A DNA stretch of 39,862 bases from a virus. A program made the position numbers and the translations under genes. The DNA is taken from positions 1 through 39,862 of IMG/VR virus record IMGVR_UViG_3300048837_000139; one strand, 5' to 3'. The notes under the pieces are model-generated. The model made no database searches. It was not told where the DNA came from and was given only the letters and a program-made list of their open reading frames with translations. This document shows positions 1,106 to 31,269 of this stretch, in pieces; positions within the stretch are counted from its first letter, which is position 1; the number at the start of each line of letters is the position of its first letter.

Positions 1106-3949
1106 TCACGGCCCATAGTATTGGCCGTAGCCCTGACCATAGCCGCCTTGGCGCACGTCGAACGGCAACCGGAGGCCCATCATCGACCGCCGCCCTGACG
1201 CCTCGGACACGAACTCGATGAACCCGTGGTCCACGACGAGGGTTGACGTGTCGATGGCATAAGACGTTCCCGAGAGTCCGGTGATCTCGTGGTCGAGAAC
1301 CCCGGCGACGTCGAGAACCCGCAGCACGGTCGTCTGCCCGGCTTCCCCGGCGACGGTGCCGCCGTCCCATTTGAGCGCGACGGAATCCTCGCTCGTCCGG
1401 TTGCGGTTCTCCCAGGTAGCGGTGATCGTCGCCGGAACCGGCACCCCGGTCGTCCCGAAACTGTAATCGACCCCGGCGAAGCCCGTCCCGTCCAACTGGC
1501 AGTTCGCGGGGCGGAACGGCAGATGCGGGCGTTCGGTGGCGGTGTAGTCAACCGGCGTCGCCTGACTGATCGGCAGCCGCCCCTCGGTGGTCCGGGGCAG
1601 ATACCAGTAGGTCACGTTCTCCCCGGCCGCCCGGATCGTCGGGTCGGTGCGGAGCGAACTGTCGGGGAACGCCCAGAGTCGCGTCCCGGCCGGCCAGTCG
1701 CGCGGGATCGTGTCCCAGATGCCGCGCGCCACCGTCCACTCGTCCAGCCCGGCGTCGTAGCTGTCGAGCATGACGATCTCGCCGGTCGCCTCGTCGTCCC
1801 CGAGCATCAACAGGTCGCCCTCGTCGGGCGCCTGCGAAAGAACGTCCGCGACCAGGAGCCCCGGCAATGTGCTGGCGACCTCGGGCACAAGCGCCGCCGG
1901 GATCGTCCCGGAGCGGGCAACCGGGAACGTGGAGACTGCCTCAACCACCGTCGAGCCGTTGGTCTTGACGACCGCCGTGTGCGCTTCCACGTCGAACGGG
2001 CGCGGCAACTGGTCGGCCATCAGGAGCGTCCCGACTTCCGGGTAGCGCGAGTCGATCTCGGCAATGTCGCCGCCGAGGCGCACCAGGGTCGGGAGCGGCG
2101 CGGTCACGGCTGCCTTGTAGGGCATGTCGGCCGGGGCGATGCGGTCGGTCGTCCAGAGCGATCCCTGCGGCGAGGAATAGGCGGTCTGTTCGACGGCGAA
2201 CACGTCCTCCACAATGTCGATGACGACCTTGCGGCTGTTGATCGTGCCGCGATCAACGTCCATCACCCGGACGATCATGTTGGTGATGTTCTCGGCGGGC
2301 CAGGAGAAAAAGAGCACGTCGCCGGGGTTTACATCCCAGAACTCCCGGTTCGCCGTCACCTGCGCCGAGAACAGCGGATAGCCAGACGCCGCCACGTCCC
2401 GATCCGCGACCTTCTGCGCGATGAACGGGTTGCGGAAAGCGTAGTAGTTGCGCGGCTCGGAAATCACGCCACCCTGGACGGCGATGCTCCCGAGGTTGTG
2501 CGACACCACGGTCGCTTCTTCCTCAGTCTGCGGGTCGGTGTAGCTGACGACGATCTCGTTGACCGTCTCCCCCCACGCCCGACGCTTCGGGTTGTCGATG
2601 GTGCAGTTCGACGGATCGAGGGTGCGCAGGCCGACCGTTGAATAGCCCCCTCGCAATGGCTTGAGTTCCCAAAGGCCGGTCGCCGGGTTCTGGTAGAGCG
2701 CAGCCTGAACGTGGTCGAGGACTTCCTGGATGATCGTCGCGACTTTATCCGACCGATACCAGCCGAAGGAGATTCCCATGAACTCGTCGTAGAAGACCTG
2801 CGCGGCGGCGTTGAAGGACGCCACGTCGATCAGAGCCGGGTCTTCGCCGCGACCCCATTCTGCGTTCACCATGCATTCGTAGATGACGTGCGCCGGATTG
2901 GCGTCTGGCAGGGTGCCGAGGGTTCCGTCGGGTTTGCAATGCGCGTAGTCGAGGTCGGGGTATTTCAGGCCGCGATAGCGGTAATCGACCCTCGCGTATT
3001 CAAAGAACGGCGACCAGAGAACGATCCATGCTTTGTAGATGACGAACCGCGCATTCGCCGGGATCAGGCATTCCACCGAAATCGACTTGTTACCGACCTC
3101 GTTGGAGTAGTCGCTTTGCGGGCCGCTACCCGGGGGAGACACGATCGGATTCGCAAAATCCGGGTTCCCGGTGCCATCGTCGGGGAAGAACCCGATCTCC
3201 GCGAAGAACTGCCCGGCGACGGGGCCGCCAGCGTCCCAGGTATAGCCGTCGAAACCGCACTTTGCGGTGAAGTTCGGGTTTCCGACGAGCGTGTCCAGTT
3301 CCTCGCGCGTCAGCCCGAGCGAGAGAAGATCGACGCGCGGCAGGTTCGTGTTCGTCCACGCGGGGTTGGAACTCGCGATGTAAAGGGCGTTGGCCCGCGC
3401 CTCGGGCGTATCCGTCGGCAACGCGCTGACAACATCGTCTGTGAATCCGTCACCGGCAGCGGTGATGCTGGCCGGAATGAACGATCCGTCCTCGGCCACC
3501 CCGACCGGGGGCATGATCCGGCTGTTGACAGGATCAAGACTCGTCGGAATCCGCGTCACCGACGCCTTCACCGGGGGGAGATAGGGGTTGTTGGACGACC
3601 AGCGGAAGCCGGAATTTCCGCCGCCACGGAAGAACAGGTGTGCAAGCCCCCGGTAGCCCGGCATGGTGGCGGGCGTACGCCCGGTGCGCGACGCGAGTTC
3701 GTCACTCGACACCTGGTCGTCGTCGCCGGGATAGAACTCGGCAACGCCGACGCAGCCACCTTCGGCATCGTCACCACCGAACAGGTCGGGCTGGTTCACG
3801 TCCTTGTCGGCGCGCACCTTCTCCCATCCGCACCAGATCGGCTTGTCCTTCACCCAGACCTGGTTGATCGCGTCCACAGGCCCGTGGCAGAGGCCGTAGT
3901 CGATGCTCATAAGAAAGTCGTAGACCTCGCGTTTCGGTTTACCACCCAT
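1106..3949 (-). CDS. Tail tip / host-specificity protein (gpJ-like)
   Basis: This is a 947-residue protein. The N-terminus (about residues 8-60, with the Y-D-F-L-M-S-I-D-Y-G-L-C-H-G-P-V-D pattern) and the middle (about 450-620, with DPQTEEE and NPGDVLFFSW segments) match the layout of phage tail-tip attachment proteins. It would form the tail tip that contacts the receptor and joins hub to fibres. The C-terminus is a short Gly/Gln/Tyr-rich repeat (GYGQGYGQYYGP). The ATG at 3949 overlaps the stop of the 68-residue gene upstream by 11 nt, so translation is probably coupled. It is the penultimate gene of the visible tail operon. The family call rests on position, size and N-terminal pattern. Confidence 0.8.
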   Translation of the reverse strand: MGGKPKREVYDFLMSIDYGLCHGPVDAINQVWVKDKPIWCGWEKVRADKDVNQPDLFGGDDAEGGCVGVAEFYPGDDDQVSSDELASRTGRTPATMPGYRGLAHLFFRGGGNSGFRWSSNNPYLPPVKASVTRIPTSLDPVNSRIMPPVGVAEDGSFIPASITAAGDGFTDDVVSALPTDTPEARANALYIASSNPAWTNTNLPRVDLLSLGLTREELDTLVGNPNFTAKCGFDGYTWDAGGPVAGQFFAEIGFFPDDGTGNPDFANPIVSPPGSGPQSDYSNEVGNKSISVECLIPANARFVIYKAWIVLWSPFFEYARVDYRYRGLKYPDLDYAHCKPDGTLGTLPDANPAHVIYECMVNAEWGRGEDPALIDVASFNAAAQVFYDEFMGISFGWYRSDKVATIIQEVLDHVQAALYQNPATGLWELKPLRGGYSTVGLRTLDPSNCTIDNPKRRAWGETVNEIVVSYTDPQTEEEATVVSHNLGSIAVQGGVISEPRNYYAFRNPFIAQKVADRDVAASGYPLFSAQVTANREFWDVNPGDVLFFSWPAENITNMIVRVMDVDRGTINSRKVVIDIVEDVFAVEQTAYSSPQGSLWTTDRIAPADMPYKAAVTAPLPTLVRLGGDIAEIDSRYPEVGTLLMADQLPRPFDVEAHTAVVKTNGSTVVEAVSTFPVARSGTIPAALVPEVASTLPGLLVADVLSQAPDEGDLLMLGDDEATGEIVMLDSYDAGLDEWTVARGIWDTIPRDWPAGTRLWAFPDSSLRTDPTIRAAGENVTYWYLPRTTEGRLPISQATPVDYTATERPHLPFRPANCQLDGTGFAGVDYSFGTTGVPVPATITATWENRNRTSEDSVALKWDGGTVAGEAGQTTVLRVLDVAGVLDHEITGLSGTSYAIDTSTLVVDHGFIEFVSEASGRRSMMGLRLPFDVRQGGYGQGYGQYYGP

Positions 3950-22749: not shown

Positions 22750-23136
22750 GTATTGCGATGATAGGAATATGGGCACCCGCCTTCTTGTGGGGCATCCAGT
22801 TCGAATCGTAAAGTTTGGTCTTGCCAGAATACGATCTCACCCGTAGGGATGCCCCTCACGAATGCGGCGTAGGCCGGTACAGCATTGTCGGCCTCCTGAG
22901 CGCGATGCTGGGCGGCGTCGCATTCGACTTGTCTTTCTACCGGCCTCTTGCCTCGTGGCGATAGGAGAAATGTTGATCCCGATGCCGGTTAGGGGTCATG
23001 CCGAGGGTGTCGGAACAAGCGGAAGGCGGGAGCCGCAATACACCCTACCCGCAGTTTACGGTGAGCGTGGAAGCCTCGGATAACGACGAACGGGCCTGAC
23101 ACCACGCAGAGAAGTGAAGGATGCCGCCTTCCGCGC
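22750..23136. other. Non-coding region next to terminase genes, possible cos/packaging region
   Basis: No convincing gene is seen in this stretch. It has two structures. One is a 9-bp inverted repeat GGGGCATCC (22789-22797) / GGATGCCCC (22847-22855) enclosing 49 nt. The other is an 11-bp inverted repeat GCGGAAGGCGG (23019-23029) / CCGCCTTCCGC (23124-23134). In lambda-like phages with GpA terminases cos lies just upstream of the small terminase gene, which is this place. The exact cut site cannot be seen. Confidence 0.45.
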
Positions 23137-23256
23137 TCACCCCAACAGCTCCCCAAGGCCCCGCTGCCCTTCGAGGTAGTCACTCCACCAGGTCATCATC
23201 CGCACGCGCTCGGGCCAATATTCGGCCGAGTTGTAGGCAGCCCGTAGGGGAGTCAC
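23137..23256 (-). pseudogene. Remnant of tyrosine integrase C-terminus
   Basis: Reading leftward from GTG 23256, a 39-codon frame gives P-L-R-A-A-Y-N-S-A-E-Y-W-P-E-R-V-R-M-M and then W-W-S-D-Y-L-E-G, ending at TGA 23137. The A-Y-N-x-A-E-Y ... E-R-x-x-M-M-x-x-W-x-D-Y-L pattern is that of the last helix of many phage integrases. Eight codons upstream of GTG is a TAA, so the catalytic part is gone. It could be a decayed integrase or an end brought in by recombination at an attachment site. It ends in G-E-L-L-G. Confidence 0.55.
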
Positions 23257-23339
23257 ATATCTAATAAAATCAATTCGTTAGGCGAACCCCTACCGGCAAT
23301 AATACCGTCATCGGGCGGGACACATTGGGACGAATGGAG

Positions 23340-25616
23340 TTAAGCGGCCGTCATCCAGGCGATTGCTGCCGGATCGAGCGCAGCGGCAACCGTGCGCGAA
23401 TCGAGCGCGCGGACATGCCGGTCGATGCGGGCACCTATCCAGGTGACGACCGGGACCGCCCACGAGTTGCCGAGCTGCTTGTAGCGCGGCCCATCGGCGG
23501 CGATGTTGAAGATCGTCCCGTCGATCTCGCAGAACGACGGGTCGCCCGCTGCCATCGCCTCGCGCGCCTTTTTCTGATTCGCCTCAGAGACAGGTGTCGT
23601 CGGAACGGCGGTCCATCGGTCCAAAAAACCTTGCAGACGTTCCGCCTCAACAGGCATTAGTCGTCTGACCGACATAGATTCCCGTTGCGCATGACAAGTC
23701 TCGGATCGCCCCACCTGGTGAACCTCTGATAGTGCTTGGAACAGTAACCGAACGCCTTCTGACGCTTCCCGCAAACTTCGCAGAATATAGGAGTCCGATG
23801 TTCCTTGATGTGACAGGACCGACAAAGCCTCTCCAGGTTTTCCGGCGAGTTGTTTCGCCAATCCTCGTCCTTGTGATGTACGTCCGTCCGGGCCGTGCTC
23901 CCACACCTGACGCAGCAAGTCTCCGGGGACGCCTTGCGTGCATGATAATGCGCTGTCATCCAGCCTACGTCTGACTTTTTCGGTTTCGCTTCGAAGGCTT
24001 GCGCCATGCAGCCACGATCGCAATATTTCTGGCGACCGAAATGCAGCAAGGACAGCAATTCCCCATTCGACATACGCTTTCTGACCAACTGCCTGCCGCA
24101 ATGTTGACAAAAGCGAACTGGCGTCGGCTTGGTAGGCATCCCCATTTCTGACCTCAAAATAACCCGCAACCGTAGGCACCCCTCGGCCGGTCCCGTCCTC
24201 GGAGCAGCCCTTGCCGTTGTTCGCGGTATTCGGGGCGTGCGTCCGGTCGCCGGTGACGCAGACGGCGAGTTGCCCGCCGGCGTTCGGATGGGAGTCCTTG
24301 TGCCCCATCGCCCGCATCGTCGGTGCCAGTTCCTCGGTCGCGTCGGCCCCGTAGTCCTTCGACGAGAAGGCGATGGCGATGCTCGCCTGGCCGCTCGACG
24401 AACCGCACCCAAGGGCGTGCGACAGGTCCACGCTGGAAATCGGATCCTGCGTCGGGTGGAAGGCGATCGCGGGCGGATGCGTCCCCGATGCGAGCGGATG
24501 GCACGGGGCGCCAGGCTTCGGGTTGCTGTAGTTCGACGGGCTGGTGATCTGCGTCGTGTCGATCGGAATGGGTTGCAACACGGCCGGGAAGCGGTTCTTC
24601 TCGGGCATGGTCTGGCCCTTGTGGAGAACAGCGTCGAGCGTCTGGCTGACGGGCGAGCCGTCCCACCATTGCGGGTAGACCACGGCTTGCGGTTGGCCTC
24701 CCCCGGAAGGGCTTTGCTTTGTTAGCGTGAGGGCGACGTCTTCGGAGAACTTCGGGGTCTGCTCCGTCGTCAACCCAACAGCGCGTCCAGATCGTTCAGC
24801 GGGCACGTCGTGCCCGCTACAGGCTCCATCGGTTCCTGGGAAACCGCCGCCTGTAGAGCGCGCATCAAGAGTTCCGGCAGTTTCTTGCCACGCTTCTCGG
24901 CTCGGCGCAGAATCCCGGCGCACGCCTTCGAACTCAAGAAGTATTTCGACGGGATCGAACCCCTCACGAGCACTTGCGACAACGAACACACGCTCGCGTC
25001 GTTGGGCCAGGCCGAAATATTGGGCATCGAGGGACCGCCACGCGACTGTCCTTTGGGGTCCAACGACACAACCAGCGTCCGACCACCGATTCCCTGACGG
25101 CTCAAGTGGCACGTCTTCGCCGGCAAGTCCAGCAAGGAAGCAGCCGAAAGCATTGGTCTTGTCGCTGAGAAGTCCGGGGACGTTCTCGTAGAAAATGATG
25201 CAAGGCTCGTCGCCATTCTCTGCCCTCTTGAGGTCGATTTCGTTTGCGATCTCAACGAAGGTCAGGGTTAGGTTGCCGCGGGTGTCGTCGAGGCCACGGC
25301 GCAGCCCCGCCAAGCTGAAACTTTGGCACGGACACCCCCCGCAGAACACGTCCGGAGCCTCGGCTTCGCCCGTGCGCACGAGATCGGGCAACTTCGTCAT
25401 GTCGCCCCAGTTCGTGACGCGATCGCCCCAGCGCATCTTGGCGATGGCGGTCTCGGTCTTCGGAAGCGGGAAGCGTGGCGCCGTGGCCCCGAGGCGATGG
25501 GAAAGCACGTTCGCGGCGGCCACGTCGACTTCCGCGAGCCACGCAGGCTCCCAGCCGAGACCATGCCACGCGACGCTGGCAGCTTCGATGCCGCTGCAAA
25601 CCGATCCGAAACGCAA
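23340..25616 (-). CDS. DNA (cytosine-5) methyltransferase, Dcm type, with insertion
   Basis: A 758-residue frame beginning at TTG 25616 (no ATG available; GAGGG upstream). C5-methyltransferase motifs: I, F-G-S-V-C-S-G-I (3-10); IV, P-C-Q with catalytic C97; VI, E-N-V (144-146); VIII, Q-R-R-E-R (205-209); IX, R-R-L-M-P-V-E-A-E-R-L-Q-G-F; X, Q-L-G-N-S-W-A-V-P. It would methylate cytosine in phage DNA against host restriction. Between the target-recognition region and motif IX lies a stretch of about 160 codons with no methyltransferase character, which is the out-of-frame shadow of an HNH gene. A second ORF overlaps motif VIII. Whether the insertion leaves an active enzyme is unknown. Confidence 0.88.
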   Translation of the reverse strand: MRFGSVCSGIEAASVAWHGLGWEPAWLAEVDVAAANVLSHRLGATAPRFPLPKTETAIAKMRWGDRVTNWGDMTKLPDLVRTGEAEAPDVFCGGCPCQSFSLAGLRRGLDDTRGNLTLTFVEIANEIDLKRAENGDEPCIIFYENVPGLLSDKTNAFGCFLAGLAGEDVPLEPSGNRWSDAGCVVGPQRTVAWRSLDAQYFGLAQRRERVFVVASAREGFDPVEILLEFEGVRRDSAPSREAWQETAGTLDARSTGGGFPGTDGACSGHDVPAERSGRAVGLTTEQTPKFSEDVALTLTKQSPSGGGQPQAVVYPQWWDGSPVSQTLDAVLHKGQTMPEKNRFPAVLQPIPIDTTQITSPSNYSNPKPGAPCHPLASGTHPPAIAFHPTQDPISSVDLSHALGCGSSSGQASIAIAFSSKDYGADATEELAPTMRAMGHKDSHPNAGGQLAVCVTGDRTHAPNTANNGKGCSEDGTGRGVPTVAGYFEVRNGDAYQADASSLLSTLRQAVGQKAYVEWGIAVLAAFRSPEILRSWLHGASLRSETEKVRRRLDDSALSCTQGVPGDLLRQVWEHGPDGRTSQGRGLAKQLAGKPGEALSVLSHQGTSDSYILRSLREASEGVRLLFQALSEVHQVGRSETCHAQRESMSVRRLMPVEAERLQGFLDRWTAVPTTPVSEANQKKAREAMAAGDPSFCEIDGTIFNIAADGPRYKQLGNSWAVPVVTWIGARIDRHVRALDSRTVAAALDPAAIAWMTAA
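23657..24145 (-). CDS. HNH homing endonuclease overprinted in the methyltransferase gene
   Basis: A 162-residue protein starting at ATG 24145 (GAGG six nt upstream; a second ATG lies two codons later). It has C-Q-H-C ... C-D-R-G-C (about 12-48) and an HNH core C-C-V-R-C-G ... D-V-H-H-K-D-E-D-W then N-N-S-P-E-N-L-E-R-L-C-R-S-C-H. A third Cys pair C-E-V-C-G-K-R-Q-K-A-F-G-Y-C-S-K-H-Y follows. It is read in a different frame from the surrounding Dcm ORF. Its stop TAA lies inside the Dcm S-V-R-R-L-M-P codons. Local GC is lower than around it, a sign of transfer. It probably cuts uninserted Dcm genes of rival phages. Confidence 0.85.
   Translation of the reverse strand: MGMPTKPTPVRFCQHCGRQLVRKRMSNGELLSLLHFGRQKYCDRGCMAQAFEAKPKKSDVGWMTAHYHARKASPETCCVRCGSTARTDVHHKDEDWRNNSPENLERLCRSCHIKEHRTPIFCEVCGKRQKAFGYCSKHYQRFTRWGDPRLVMRNGNLCRSDD
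24770..25027 (-). CDS. Overlapping ORF in methyltransferase gene (ILRRAEKRGK protein), 85 aa
   Basis: In the +1 frame relative to the methyltransferase, ATG 25027 opens an 85-codon ORF. It starts MPNISAWPNDASVCSLSQVL and includes S-K-Y-F-L-S-S-K-A-C-A-G-I-L-R-R-A-E-K-R-G-K-K-L-P. It ends in C-P-L-N-D-L-D-A-L-L-G. I recognise the KYFLSxxACxGILRRAExRGKxLP pattern from short hypothetical proteins of other phages, so this frame looks selected rather than random. It covers Dcm motif VIII and the start of the target-recognition region. Function is unknown. Recognition is from memory of the pattern, not a search. Confidence 0.6.
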   Translation of the reverse strand: MPNISAWPNDASVCSLSQVLVRGSIPSKYFLSSKACAGILRRAEKRGKKLPELLMRALQAAVSQEPMEPVAGTTCPLNDLDALLG

Positions 25617-25618
25617 AA

Positions 25619-25643
25619 TCCGACCCTCGTTGTGAGAGTCGGA
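25619..25643 (-). terminator. Hairpin between HTH gene and methyltransferase start (terminator or attenuator)
   Basis: On the minus strand TCCGAC-T-CTC pairs with GAG-G-GTCGGA round a 5-nt loop, followed by ATTTT. It stands 3 nt after the HTH gene stop. The 3' arm contains the GAGGG ribosome site of the methyltransferase, and its TTG start overlaps the T run. The structure could end HTH transcripts and also hide the methyltransferase ribosome site. Confidence 0.55.
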
Positions 25644-25645
25644 CC

Positions 25646-25975
25646 TTAGTGCAGAAACGTGAAAGAGTCCACGTTAAACGTGAAAGTCGAGTTCAGAAGC
25701 CGCCCGGTGCCGAGCGCAAGCCACGCTTCATCCTGCCCGGTGATCGCGGCAAGGGCACTCATTGCCTGCTTCCGCGGCAAGGTCTCACCATAGAGCCACT
25801 TGCGGACGGACTCCGGCGTGACCTGCACGTCAAACCGCTTGTCGAGTTGATCGACGATCCATTGCAGCCGACCGTAGTTCGGCGCCGGAACCAGAGGGTT
25901 GCTGTCGCAAGCCTGCCGGAACCTCTGCGCAAACTCAGGGTGGTGCACCTTCCCTTCCGCTTCGGTATTGAGCAT
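25646..25975 (-). CDS. Phage repressor-like HTH protein, 109 aa
   Basis: I start at ATG 25975 because GGGAGA stands 6 nt upstream; the frame also offers a GTG six codons earlier. Residues about 14-80 form a lambda-repressor-like HTH: F-A-Q-R-F-R-Q-A-C, then L-D-K-R-F-D-V-Q-V-T-P-E-S-V-R-K-W-L-Y-G-E-T-L-P as recognition region, then M-S-A-L-A-A-I. There is no C-terminal peptidase domain, so it is Cro-like in size. Two AAACGTGAAAG copies lie inside its last codons and could be its own binding sites. It is separated by about 80 bp from the helicase gene. Role as the main switch protein is inference. Confidence 0.75.
   Translation of the reverse strand: MLNTEAEGKVHHPEFAQRFRQACDSNPLVPAPNYGRLQWIVDQLDKRFDVQVTPESVRKWLYGETLPRKQAMSALAAITGQDEAWLALGTGRLLNSTFTFNVDSFTFLH
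25655..25686. promoter_or_regulatory. Two AAACGTGAAAG direct repeats with a 19-bp palindrome
   Basis: AAACGTGAAAG occurs at 25655-25665 and 25676-25686, exactly 21 bp apart (two helical turns). The second copy is the right arm of GTCCAC-GTTAAAC-GTGAAA (25667-25685), which has the same 7-nt spacing as the palindromes at 22726, 32455 and 35823. The repeats lie in the 3' end of the HTH gene and upstream of the methyltransferase. They are probably operators. Confidence 0.65.
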
Positions 25976-27780: not shown

Positions 27781-27998
27781 GCTTCACCCCCGAGCGGATC
27801 GAACAAATGGTGACGGCTCGTGCCGGCCCACCGTTCATGGCAGGACTTGTGCTCGACGATGTTGATATTCCGCATGTAGCGGTACTGCGGCCACGGGTAG
27901 GGCTTCGTCGCGTTGCCGAAAGTATGGCATCCGGCCCACGCCTCGACGCGATGACCGCAGCGGATGCAGACGCCTGCGTATCGGTTCGGATCACTCAT
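27777..27998 (-). CDS. Small Cys/His-rich protein, 73 aa
   Basis: I use ATG 27998, which overlaps the polymerase stop (ATGA); the frame also has an ATG five codons upstream. Visible features are Y-A-G-V-C-I-R-C-G-H-R-V near the N-terminus, a further C-H at about 28-29 and H-K-S-C-H-E near residue 50. Together these could bind one zinc ion. No known family is recognised. It is read between polymerase and VRR-NUC with overlaps on both sides, so it is part of the replication operon. It may be a DNA-binding accessory. Confidence 0.7.
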   Translation of the reverse strand: MSDPNRYAGVCIRCGHRVEAWAGCHTFGNATKPYPWPQYRYMRNINIVEHKSCHERWAGTSRHHLFDPLGGEA

Positions 27999-28957
27999 GC
28001 TGCCACCATCCATTCGCTGAGAACGTGGAACTTGTTCGCTTTGGTAAGGCGAATGCGCCTCATCTGCGGCTCAGGGGCACCATAGAAGCCGAGTTCGTGC
28101 AGGATCCGGTCGGCTTCCTCGACGTACCGCTCGTAGTCGATATCGTCGGGGAACTCGTCGGGGAGGCGCATCAGTTCGCGCGCCCCGTCCGTCTTCGGCA
28201 CCTTCTTGTAGTTGCCGGTCGCCTCGTTCGGAGCGTCCTCGTAGACCGCCTCGCCGTCCGTCGACCAGTAGTAGCGGATCGTCTTGCCGAGATATTTCCC
28301 CCGCCAGGTCGCGCCCTTTGTGACCTTGATGACGGTGATGAACTGCCGAATGTCCCGGCACCCGAAAATCGTGTCGCGCAGCGGCGTGCCGTGCTTGATC
28401 CGGGCGAGGGCTGCGTCCGAGCAAATCGTCATCTGCGGGTTCTTCATCAACTGGCCGCGCAGGTCGTTGTCGGCCGGGTCGCTCGACCACGGGTTCGCGA
28501 GCGGACCCTTGCGCTTGTGGCCGCCATTGGCCTTGATCGCGAAGTAGGAGTTGACCGACTGGTTGTAGAGCGCCGCATACTCGTTGAATTCGAGGTCGAA
28601 GCCGGTCTCTCGCTCCCAGGTAGAAGTGATTTCGGCGAGCGGGCCACCAAGGAGCCGGTCCTTCTCGATCCCCTCGAAATCGTCGCGGGGGAGGCGGAAT
28701 ACCACGCCGTCCGTGTTGCCGCTGACAACCGGGATGCCGGCCGTCTCGGCTCGCTCTATCAGCATCAGAAGTGCGAGCTGGCCGGTCAACGTGACCGAGA
28801 TCATCAGGTGCGGGGCATAGACGAAGGAGAACCGGCTGCCCAACGATCCGAAGCAGCCGTTCAATGACACCTTATAACCTTTGTCCTTGGCTTGAACTGA
28901 AAGCAATTCGGCCTTTTTGGCCGCGATGCGAGCCTTGATTTCGGCAATTTTATCCAC
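27995..28957 (-). CDS. Family B DNA polymerase, C-terminal fragment (motifs B and C)
   Basis: A 320-residue protein from GTG 28957, with AGAGGGA 7 nt upstream. The open frame extends to 28981 but that part overlaps the endonuclease gene. Polymerase motif B is [13 protein letters not shown] (29-41), and motif C is G-N-T-D-G-V (80-85). The first 25 residues form a charged helix. It lacks motif A and the exonuclease, which are on the separate N-terminal gene at 29611-30744. The two must meet to give an active enzyme. GTG overlaps the end of the HNH/AP2 gene by 8 nt. A split between motifs A and B is unusual but known from other split phage polymerases. Confidence 0.88.
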
Positions 28958-29618
28958 GGCGGAATCCCTCTTGGAGCACAATGGCGGCGTTCAGAGTTTT
29001 AGCCGAACCGACGTAAACTCGCTTCCCACCAGTTGTCTCCCGAACGATATATTTCCCGTGTTTTTCGTGAAACGTGATGCCCTTGACACCAGTCGACGAA
29101 TCCCGGCGCTCTCGACGTTCGGTCATTTTCATCGCGGCCTTCGGGTCGACGGCATACTTCTCGATGAAGAGTTCTCGGTAATCTCGCGCAGCTTCGGCCG
29201 TGTCGAAACGACCAAGATTCGCCCGCAATCCGTATTCTTGGTAGCGGGCTAAATAAGAGCCGTTCTGTAACAGATTGACACCAGGGTAAGGTGTTGAGTT
29301 TGATTTGAAATTTCGGCGGTTCAAACACTGTTCTGTTCGATCTGCCCACCGGCAGTTTTCAGGGGAATAGTCCAGTCCATTATCAATTCGTTCAATCGTC
29401 AGACCGGGTTCGTAGGTCGGAAACATATCTTCCGCGAACTTCGCGAAATGTCGCCACCTAGCGCAATAAGATATCCCGCGGCCACCGTAATTCTCGTAAT
29501 TCTCTGCATTTGGATTGGAGCAACGCGCTTTCATGCTCGCCCATACGACATATAGTGGATGCTCACGCACCCGGTAGCCGTCTACGAGAACCCCCCTCGG
29601 ATGGTAGGTTTCAGCCAT
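28950..29618 (-). CDS. HNH/AP2 homing endonuclease between polymerase halves, 222 aa
   Basis: Start ATG 29618 with GGAGG upstream. The N-terminal part is an HNH fold of the H-P-L-Y-x-x-W-x-x-M-K-A-R-C, Y-G-G-R-G-I, C-A-R-W type. [13 protein letters not shown] and N-R-R follow. The second half has two AP2-like DNA-binding repeats, Y-P-G-V-N-L-L ... [10 protein letters not shown] and G-V-K-G-I-T-F ... [10 protein letters not shown]. Base composition is clearly more AT-rich than the flanking genes, so it was acquired separately. It overlaps both polymerase fragments by 8 nt. No intron cores were seen, so it is a free-standing homing endonuclease gene that split the polymerase. Confidence 0.9.
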
Positions 29619-30744
29619 CGGAATTCCCCTCCAATTCCGCCAGTTCGCGTTCGAGTTCTTTGATCTCGTCCTTGAGTTGCTTCGCTCGTTTCTTCGCCTT
29701 CACCCGGTCGTCGCGAATGCCGCGGTAGATGTCGAGGAACTTCGGCCCGATCGTCTCGGGATACAGGCCGAGGGAAAGGATGATCGCGGGGTAGTAGGAG
29801 GCCACATCGGCGTCGATCAGCACGAATTCGTCGTCGGCCACCACGGCGCGATTCGCCTCGGTGCTGTGCAGCCCGCCGATGCCCATGCTGTAGGTCGACT
29901 CGCCGAGGGTGATCGGCATGTCCGAGAGCCATTTCGGCAGGTCCACCTTGCCGTCATCGCGGATAACGAAGGTGTGCGCCTGAATCCGGTCGAGAATGTC
30001 GCGAAGCTGCGGCGTCGTGAACCGGATGAAATCCGGCGCCTTGTAGCGGAAGGTCGAACCGGGTTTCACGGTCGGCCGGTCGAGACGATGCCCGAGCAAG
30101 GCTTCGGCGCGGTGCTTGATGATCGCCAGGCCGACCTGGGTGTCCGACTTCGAGCGCAGGTCGACGCCGATTTCCTCGGACAGCGCCACGCGCAGTTCGA
30201 TCGGCTCCTTCATCGCGTCCCAGAGATTCTGCGTCGCGTCCAGGTCTGAGTGCAGGCAGTAATGGGCCGTGAGGTCCATTTCCTCGTGCGTCAACTCGCG
30301 ATCCGGGTCGAACGGCAAGTCCTGCATCTGCTTGCCGTGCAGCCGACCGTTCAGGATCTTGAGACTGGCGAACGGGTTCGGCTGCGGTTCGATCAAATCC
30401 ACGGATGGAATTCCGTAAGGAAGCCGGAAGCCAATGACCTGATCGACCTCCCAGTATTTCACGCGACCGAGGATAATGCGGTCGGAGACGTCCTTGATTT
30501 CTCTCAGGGTCGGATACTCGCCGTTCTCCTTCTCGGTGCAGGCGTAGATCGCCACTGGCAGGTCGTAGGTCAAGCCATTGAATGTAATCGTGACCTTGCG
30601 TGTCAGGAAGCGACGCATCCACGCCCGGTCGAAGGTCGCGCGGTCGGACAATTCAAAGCCGGCTCGTTTTTCTTCCCCGTCGAGTTTGGCCCCGATGTAG
30701 AAGAAATTAGGATAGCACTCGATATCGACGAGGTATTGCTTCAT
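29611..30744 (-). CDS. Family B DNA polymerase, N-terminal fragment (exonuclease and motif A)
   Basis: A 377-residue protein from ATG 30744 (TGATG overlap with the preceding stop). Proofreading exonuclease motifs: I, V-D-I-E (D7, E9); II, F-N-G-L-T-Y-D (55-61); [11 protein letters not shown] (162-169). Polymerase motif A is D-A-D-V-A-S-Y-Y-P (311-319). The protein then ends in a long charged helix (about 340-372) and stops where fingers or palm would continue. The missing motifs B and C are on the next polymerase gene. It would replicate phage DNA together with the C-terminal fragment. The stop overlaps the endonuclease start by 8 nt. Confidence 0.9.
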
Positions 30745-31269
30745 CACAGCAGCCTCGCGAGTTCGTCGGTTTCAGGTACGGTGACGGGGACATACGGCCG
30801 GTCGTTCAGGAGTCTCGACCACCGTGTCTTCAATTCCGTAGGTTGATCTGTTCGACGCGGCTTTCCGTCCGTATGTTTCCATTGGCCGCCGCCGGCCGTC
30901 CCTTCGCAAACCCATCCGCTCGCTTTCAGTGACGTGCCGTCTTCTGCATCGGCGAGAATGTAGGTCTGAATTTTACGGTAGCCGAGAGCCTTCCCGACCT
31001 TCGCGGACGCTCCGTAAAGCATCGAGCAAGCGTTTCTCGTTCCGTCCGTTACGAGTCTCGTAACCTCAAGCACTTCCTTCGGGTTAACCATGCGGGCGAC
31101 CGGCCTGCCGACAATGGCTGCCCCCCCTAAGAGTTCCGTCATCAGCGATAACGCCGAGAGAAAACCGATGCCCGACGCACGGCTTATGGTGGCGATGCAA
31201 TGTCGCAACGAGTGCGTTCGCCTCCTTCAATTCAAGAGGCACAACGCGAAGGGGGATATACTGCCTCAT
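30744..31269 (-). pseudogene. XF1762-family (GNAT-like) gene with frameshift at a G7 run
   Basis: The N-terminus is read from ATG 31269 (M-R-Q-Y-I-P-L-R-V-V-P-L-E-L-K) up to D-D-G-T-L-R-G-G. The C-terminus (A-A-I-V-G-R-P-V-A-R, then E-V-T-R-L-V-T-D-G-T-R-N-A-C-S) continues in another frame to TGA 30744. The two meet at seven Gs (plus 31121-31127); removing one G gives one 174-residue protein reading L-R-G-A-A-I-V-G-R-P. The fold pattern resembles GNAT acetyltransferases, including the Mu Mom type. It overlaps the methyltransferase stop (ATGA), so a role in DNA modification is possible. It may be a real mutation, a slippage site or a sequencing error. Confidence 0.8.

Follow-up and report, generated by a model that had tools for sequence, protein, structure and literature searches.

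An HNH endonuclease gene lying out of frame within a stop-free phage cytosine-5 methyltransferase gene, one of a family with selection on both readings

Introduction

The homing endonuclease I-HmuI is encoded in a group I intron. In T4, the bypass in gene 60 is thought to protect the host gene from an endonuclease, and work on MobA reportedly tied a homing endonuclease to this bypass. The sections of the Atkins review drawn on here (PMC5009743) describe the gene 60 bypass element with its adjacent homing endonuclease, and also stop-hops, in which matched codons lie on either side of a stop and of which no natural in-frame case was known in 2016. Closest to the present case is the ShiLan domain, an HNH endonuclease hidden out of frame in a phage methylase (Genes 2025, 16:178; PMC11855218). 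The portion of that paper used here gives Pacc40 gp60 as a second published hidden out-of-frame HNH-like insertion, and an extract of a further phage report concerns the Applejack methylase (PMC12613952). Among the papers listed by literature searches, bioRxiv not covered, only the ShiLan papers and one genome announcement concern out-of-frame HNHs in methylases.

Here we describe a locus of this kind in a 39,862-nucleotide stretch of viral DNA (positions 1 to 39,862 of IMG/VR record IMGVR_UViG_3300048837_000139, hereafter the window) together with its relatives. Very probably, a mobile HNH gene, likely a homing one and free of intron and intein, sits in the linker of the methyltransferase, where it is read through and both readings are selected.

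Results

The host gene (Table 1) is free of stops along its whole length, insertion included. Its product matches PF00145 over Dcm residues 1-216 (E=2.9e-27, Pfam scan), a part that we take to comprise motifs I-VIII, and also TIGR00675, below that model's cut-off; with PF00145 and a motif IX/X region it is a C5 cytosine methyltransferase. A search for near relatives of the Dcm protein gave only three loci at 32-34% identity, and a search for relatives of its C-terminal part gave none. Because no close uninserted relative was found, the empty site cannot be mapped to the base and the 5' border of the insertion is approximate.

The nested gene begins with ATG, its first base falling on position 2 of a host codon, and its TAA (23659-23657) is placed within the Leu-Met codons of host SVRRLMP. 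A sequence-only reading had described an HNH gene with its own ribosome site in another frame of a Dcm-type gene, ending inside the S-V-R-R-L-M-P codons and leaving the Dcm frame without a stop over about 490 bp, and each of these points holds (ORF 24145-23657 with GAGG and ATG; 758-aa ORF open throughout). In the overlapping stretch there are two stops in the third frame and none in the host frame. Upstream of the ATG the HNH frame stays open, so that the ORF listing shows a longer reading of 251 aa from 24412. The HNH protein matches PF01844 with 23.0 bits against a gathering cut-off of 21.4 (E=9e-5) and has the HNH core, which places it among the HNH endonucleases; folded alone, its AlphaFold model reaches a pLDDT of 89.8. 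A PDB sequence search with the HNH profile gave no match and Foldseek against the PDB nothing at E<=0.001; VIA-align of the Foldseek candidates placed the HNH core, with Z 5.9 to 4h9d, 5.6 to 5h0m and 4.7 to I-HmuI (1u3e).

Elsewhere in the window (27995-30747), a DNA polymerase (phrog_1252) lies in two ORFs with another HNH gene between them (28950-29618, phrog_374), which is a classic gene-splitting or intron-like layout, with no Rfam intron match in the window.

Table 1. Coordinates of the methyltransferase locus in the window, and related loci with a Leu-stop-Leu site
Feature	Position	Strand	Remarks
Host gene, cytosine-5 DNA methyltransferase, Dcm/Dmt type, 758 aa	23340..25616	-	TTG start; PF00145, phrog_116
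Methyltransferase N-terminal catalytic part, residues 1-216	24969..25616	-	PF00145; mostly confident in AlphaFold model
Motif IX codons SVRRLMPVEAERLQGF	23625..23672	-	HNH TAA (23657-23659) inside these codons
Nested HNH endonuclease gene, 162 aa + TAA	23657..24145	-	PF01844; Cys pairs (zinc-ribbon-like) either side of HNH core; 21-row alignment
Shine-Dalgarno-like GAGG	24152..24155	-	six bases 5' of HNH ATG
Same DNA in host frame, ~160-residue methyltransferase insert, residues 491-654	23657..24145	-	no stop; partly selected
Host-frame Trp518 codon (third base of HNH Asn27 + GG of Gly28)	24063..24065	-	invariant in 23/23 nested loci
Leu-stop-Leu loci	L118, L119, L120, L121, L122, L123, L124		motif IX of methyltransferase

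The comparison with uninserted phage Dcm proteins that the sequence-only reading had proposed came out in its favour. In an alignment of 11 of the 23 inserted loci with 10 of the 13 uninserted rows in alignment A4 (L150, L168 and L189 left out), positions ~491-640 are occupied in the inserted loci and largely blank in the 10 uninserted ones, in which a variable linker is followed directly by motif IX; most of this segment has no counterpart there. Conservation of insert residues in relatives lacking the HNH gene, which would have spoken against an insertion, was not seen, the nested element occurring in 0/80 uninterrupted Dcm loci among the matches listed (at least 120 stretches, scanned with a pattern for one form of motif IX; a weak, partial HNH match of 26% in L217 is not counted). 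In the AlphaFold model of the host protein the two halves (~1-230 and 650-758) are confident and the linker (230-500) is disordered, while the insert is weakly helical with a pLDDT of about 37-62 per block, its first part (501-540) holding a conserved block. Three features of a hidden HNH insertion of the ShiLan kind are found here, namely an HNH in another frame, a stop-free host frame and absence of the segment from related methylases.

The HNH protein or its alignment was searched against virus contigs, species genomes and phage records, and loci were picked via the HNH, not by the state of the host frame. With one intact HNH retained per 90% identity, window included, the set has 24 members; matches shorter than 420 bases, a duplicate of the window (L027) and L007/L032, whose HNH has a stop, were left out. 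All but one (23/24) are nested in the same register with zero host-frame stops. The only free-standing relative, L056, has 16 stops in the host-register frame and, having no host frame, was left out of the host-frame identity, divergence, column, parsimony and ribosome-site analyses. Virus contigs supplied nested copies, as did Staphylococcus phage CUB-EPI_14 and two MAGs, one of Peptococcaceae and one of Methylococcaceae; in a Komagataeibacter phage (L002), a shorter and more distant HNH relative is nested in the same register. The annotation of CUB-EPI_14 has the methyltransferase only, an example of how such endonucleases can be overlooked. The host ORF matches PF00145 in 20/23, with no match in L033 and with L054 and L039 outside the scan (the near relative L041 matched). 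Host genes are interrupted outside the insert in L033, L037, L054, L108 and L123, and others are cut by contig ends. The plasmid collection gave no match to the HNH, and 113 genomes from the class of the L108 genome held no Leu-stop-Leu site and no nested HNH other than L108's own. Judged by these sequence comparisons, the nested HNH arrangement is a conserved family and not a one-off, and it recurs in phages of unrelated hosts.

Further nested or interrupting elements were observed. At L008:1394-2047 and 2995-3489, a single methyltransferase ORF has two HNH genes nested in it, from different families and in different registers, one belonging to the window family and the second being an HNH_3, ShiLan-like, in the other register. 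A frameshifted methyltransferase (L054, same contig as L122) has two HNH-family copies at ~3219 and ~3995, and another (L007:462-3686) combines a Hint/LAGLIDADG intein at the PC motif with a nested HNH that has a premature TAG, the host frame being intact. A terminase (L105:1981-4128) contains an intein-like segment whose open frame also encodes an HNH in another frame, a portal-like protein (L104:2523-4901) contains an intein-like segment, with a weak intein match, and an HNH in another frame, and a 2152-codon phage ORF (L095:1627-8085) has a nested out-of-frame HNH.

For each locus, the chance that the host frame stays free of stops was calculated for the same HNH protein and the locus's own codon usage. 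It is 1.7e-3 for the window (5e-5 when permuting its own synonymous codons) and, across nested loci, 3e-3 at most and down to 2e-17 in the AT-rich Staphylococcus phage; 4.9-23 host-frame stops are expected per gene and 0 are observed in 23/23 nested loci. In this register a stop in the host frame arises only where an HNH codon with T as its third base precedes AA, AG or GA; all amino acids have at least one codon with another third base, so that a stop is always avoidable and any protein can be written stop-free. In the other register, Met gives an unavoidable stop whenever all codons for the next residue begin with A, and 14 of the 23 HNH proteins cannot be encoded stop-free in it (probability 0). 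Selection for an open host frame is evident from the choice of codons.

Divergence among nested loci is 0.36, 0.33 and 0.55 at HNH codon positions 1, 2 and 3, and since positions 1 and 2 diverge less than 3, the HNH frame is dominant. Host-frame identity is 0.341 vs 0.287 in genes simulated with both HNH proteins and the open host frame preserved (HNH pairs at 50-60% identity), an excess of which codon descent could account for part. In the column test, a host-frame Trp is present in 23/23 nested loci vs 7.8 expected (P=8.5e-13) and a host-frame Phe in 16/23 vs 2.4 expected (P=8e-13), the window itself having Tyr. At the Trp site the HNH residue varies (Asn, Ser of both codon types, Gly) and its third base is always T, with 0 parsimony steps against 6.9 on average at HNH third positions; at the other invariant non-Met HNH third positions (Cys42, Asn98) the codons indicate that the alternative base would give a host stop, unlike at the Trp site. 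Half of the informative columns have a host-frame P<0.05, which indicates that the test is inflated by shared descent or codon bias, and with the 23 loci being related only the extreme columns are convincing. They show that the host-frame peptide of the insert is under selection as well as the HNH reading. The expected insert of about 160 residues made of out-of-frame codons is thus present (491-654), although the notion of a merely passive insert does not survive the selected host-frame residues.

A stop interrupts motif IX, at RRLTPL*LECxRLQ, in several of the methyltransferases with a nested HNH; the window has no such Leu-stop-Leu site. A scan of all virus contigs for any six-base insertion at one motif IX position gave seven loci (Table 1), two of them near-identical, and 7/7 read CTT or CTC, then TAG, TGA or TAA, then CTT (CTY-TRR-CTT). 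That all three stop codons occur speaks against a recoded stop. A nested HNH lies upstream in 6/7 of these loci vs 0/80 uninterrupted loci among the matches listed (Fisher 1.4e-8, relatedness ignored); in the exception, L123, the methyltransferase is disrupted in several frames. Past the stop, L118 and L121 have 15, 6 and 30 differences at codon positions 1, 2 and 3, a pattern expected of a stretch that has gone on coding, provided that the stop was already present in their common ancestor. A second scan, for insertions after ACCCCNCT, returned 24 stretches whose gaps measure 4-34 bases; 3 are the known Leu-stop-Leu loci and the remainder read as chance or other-frame matches, except for L141, an ordinary motif IX with TPLL before it. 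We regard the Leu-stop-Leu sites as candidate natural ribosomal stop-hops linked to a mobile endonuclease.

Discussion

We propose that an HNH gene invaded the disordered, length-variable linker directly 5' of motif IX in phage cytosine-5 methyltransferase genes, where it lies in the sole out-of-frame same-strand register in which host stops are always avoidable. Ribosomes in the host frame would read through and produce a methyltransferase with a ~160-residue insert, no splicing being needed because the register allows a stop-free host frame, while an internal start, often with a Shine-Dalgarno sequence, would give the endonuclease. By analogy with homing endonucleases, the HNH would cut uninserted alleles near motif IX and then be copied in, and the methyltransferase presumably retains its activity. 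Among 11 inserted loci, HNH identity exceeds methyltransferase-core identity in 43/55 pairs (means 0.59 vs 0.50), a weak signal that is consistent with lateral spread; the two identities correlate (r=0.73), which points to vertical inheritance in good part.

Of the competing explanations, the best placed is that the insert has been domesticated, no longer homes and owes its retention to the host-frame peptide, with target recognition as one conceivable role. This would accommodate the selected host-frame Trp and Phe, the location between the N-terminal part and motif IX, which we take to be near the target-recognition region, and the intact host frame of L007 despite its premature HNH stop. 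However, the HNH is intact in 23 nested loci and is the better conserved reading, and L007, whose contig is also listed as L032, is alone among the full-length copies seen in having a stop, which makes domestication unlikely.

How the endonuclease is expressed allows another reading, in which the HNH is a C-terminal fusion to the N-terminal half of the methyltransferase, made by ribosomal frameshifting near the junction and not from its own start. The HNH frame is indeed open far upstream in many loci (total HNH-frame lengths reach 354 codons in the window and 247 in L003), and about half of the loci have no clear ribosome site. On the other hand, the alignable region begins in most loci with a start codon, usually ATG, the upstream sequence is unconserved, and L009, L108 and L001 have a near-perfect Shine-Dalgarno sequence. 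Matches of at least four bases to this sequence occur at 12/21 starts vs 7.0 expected under base shuffling, a family-wide excess that is suggestive only; the count excludes L012 and L054, whose kept slice does not begin with Met. Frameshifting is quite improbable, and translation of the endonuclease probably initiates at its own start inside the host gene.

A self-splicing group I or group II intron with an HNH ORF, removed from the mRNA, would agree with an insertion that adjoins a conserved motif and with the fact that HNH homing endonucleases are often carried by group I introns. However, the covariance search for intron folds, called for by the sequence-only reading, found no recognisable intron RNA in Rfam terms, at lax or gathering thresholds, in 23000-25700 (E<=5), the whole window or 11 related loci, the host frame is open in 23/23, and selected host-frame residues would be pointless if removed. 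Neither is there an intein signature, as the window's host protein has PF00145 as its sole Pfam match, no Hint domain and no in-frame splicing blocks at the insert ends; the domain scan is able to detect an intein, having found one elsewhere in the L007 methyltransferase. Splicing of the insert is unlikely because the host-frame peptide is selected and a removed peptide would not be expected to be, with the intron itself highly improbable; most likely the insert is retained in the methyltransferase, in a disordered linker. The earlier claim of a solution other than intron, intein or gene splitting stands in that no intron or intein signature was found, but such a solution is not unprecedented, given what the cited portion of the ShiLan paper describes (PMC11855218). 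Hardly credible, finally, is that the insert is an ordinary part of the methyltransferase with a spurious or overprinted HNH ORF: the host-frame peptide is conserved more than the HNH reading forces, but the HNH reading is better conserved, matches PF01844, keeps its HNH and Cys residues and is modelled at pLDDT 89.8 vs a low-confidence host reading, the free-standing L056 exists, and most phage Dcm proteins examined are without the segment.

With a mobile HNH gene read through in the linker as the preferred explanation, a selfish endonuclease can enter a conserved gene without splicing machinery, through a register in which synonymous codons avoid stops. The host-frame residue signal provides a purely genomic argument for the insert staying in the enzyme, a point left open for the published ShiLan case in the part of the account used here. 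Were ribosomes to translate through them, the Leu-stop-Leu sites would count as natural stop-hops of the in-frame kind of which the cited sections of the review knew none in 2016 (PMC5009743). The more elaborate picture, a mobile cassette selected in both frames to which some lineages added a hopped six-base Leu-stop-Leu that may shield the host gene from the endonuclease, is offered as tentative and somewhat doubtful.

Among known systems, I-HmuI-type HNH homing endonucleases have the HNH core fold in common with the window HNH, but I-HmuI lies in a group I intron whereas the window HNH has no detectable one. As far as the T4 gene 60 account drawn on here goes, the likeness, a homing endonuclease with a ribosome-skipped insert, pertains to the stop-hop sites of the relatives and not to the window, which is without such a site; T4 has 50 bases and an adjacent endonuclease, whereas the relatives have six bases and a nested one. 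Pacc40 and Applejack are actinobacteriophages, and the extracts of their accounts make no link to cytosine-5 methyltransferases (PMC11855218; PMC12613952).

In the portion of its description used here, the ShiLan domain resembles our element in the out-of-frame HNH within an open phage DNA-methylase gene, the lack of an intron or intein signal, the HNH-ending TAA at the end of the insertion and the disjunct distribution (PMC11855218). However, ShiLan gp65 is a PF01555 methylase of N6/N4 type with an HNH_3 endonuclease starting at host codon position 3, whereas the window family has PF00145, PF01844 and a start at position 2, so that the window does not hold a ShiLan domain proper, with the same methylase family, HNH family and register; the two HNH proteins align weakly (27%, E=0.001). 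The ShiLan HNH starts with GTG and, per its authors, has no ribosome site, in contrast to ATG and GAGG in the window, and they view the host-frame peptide as a tolerated loop, whereas in the window family it is selected (PMC11855218). Taken together, the window element is of the same kind as the ShiLan domain published in 2025 and represents a separate and more widespread family.
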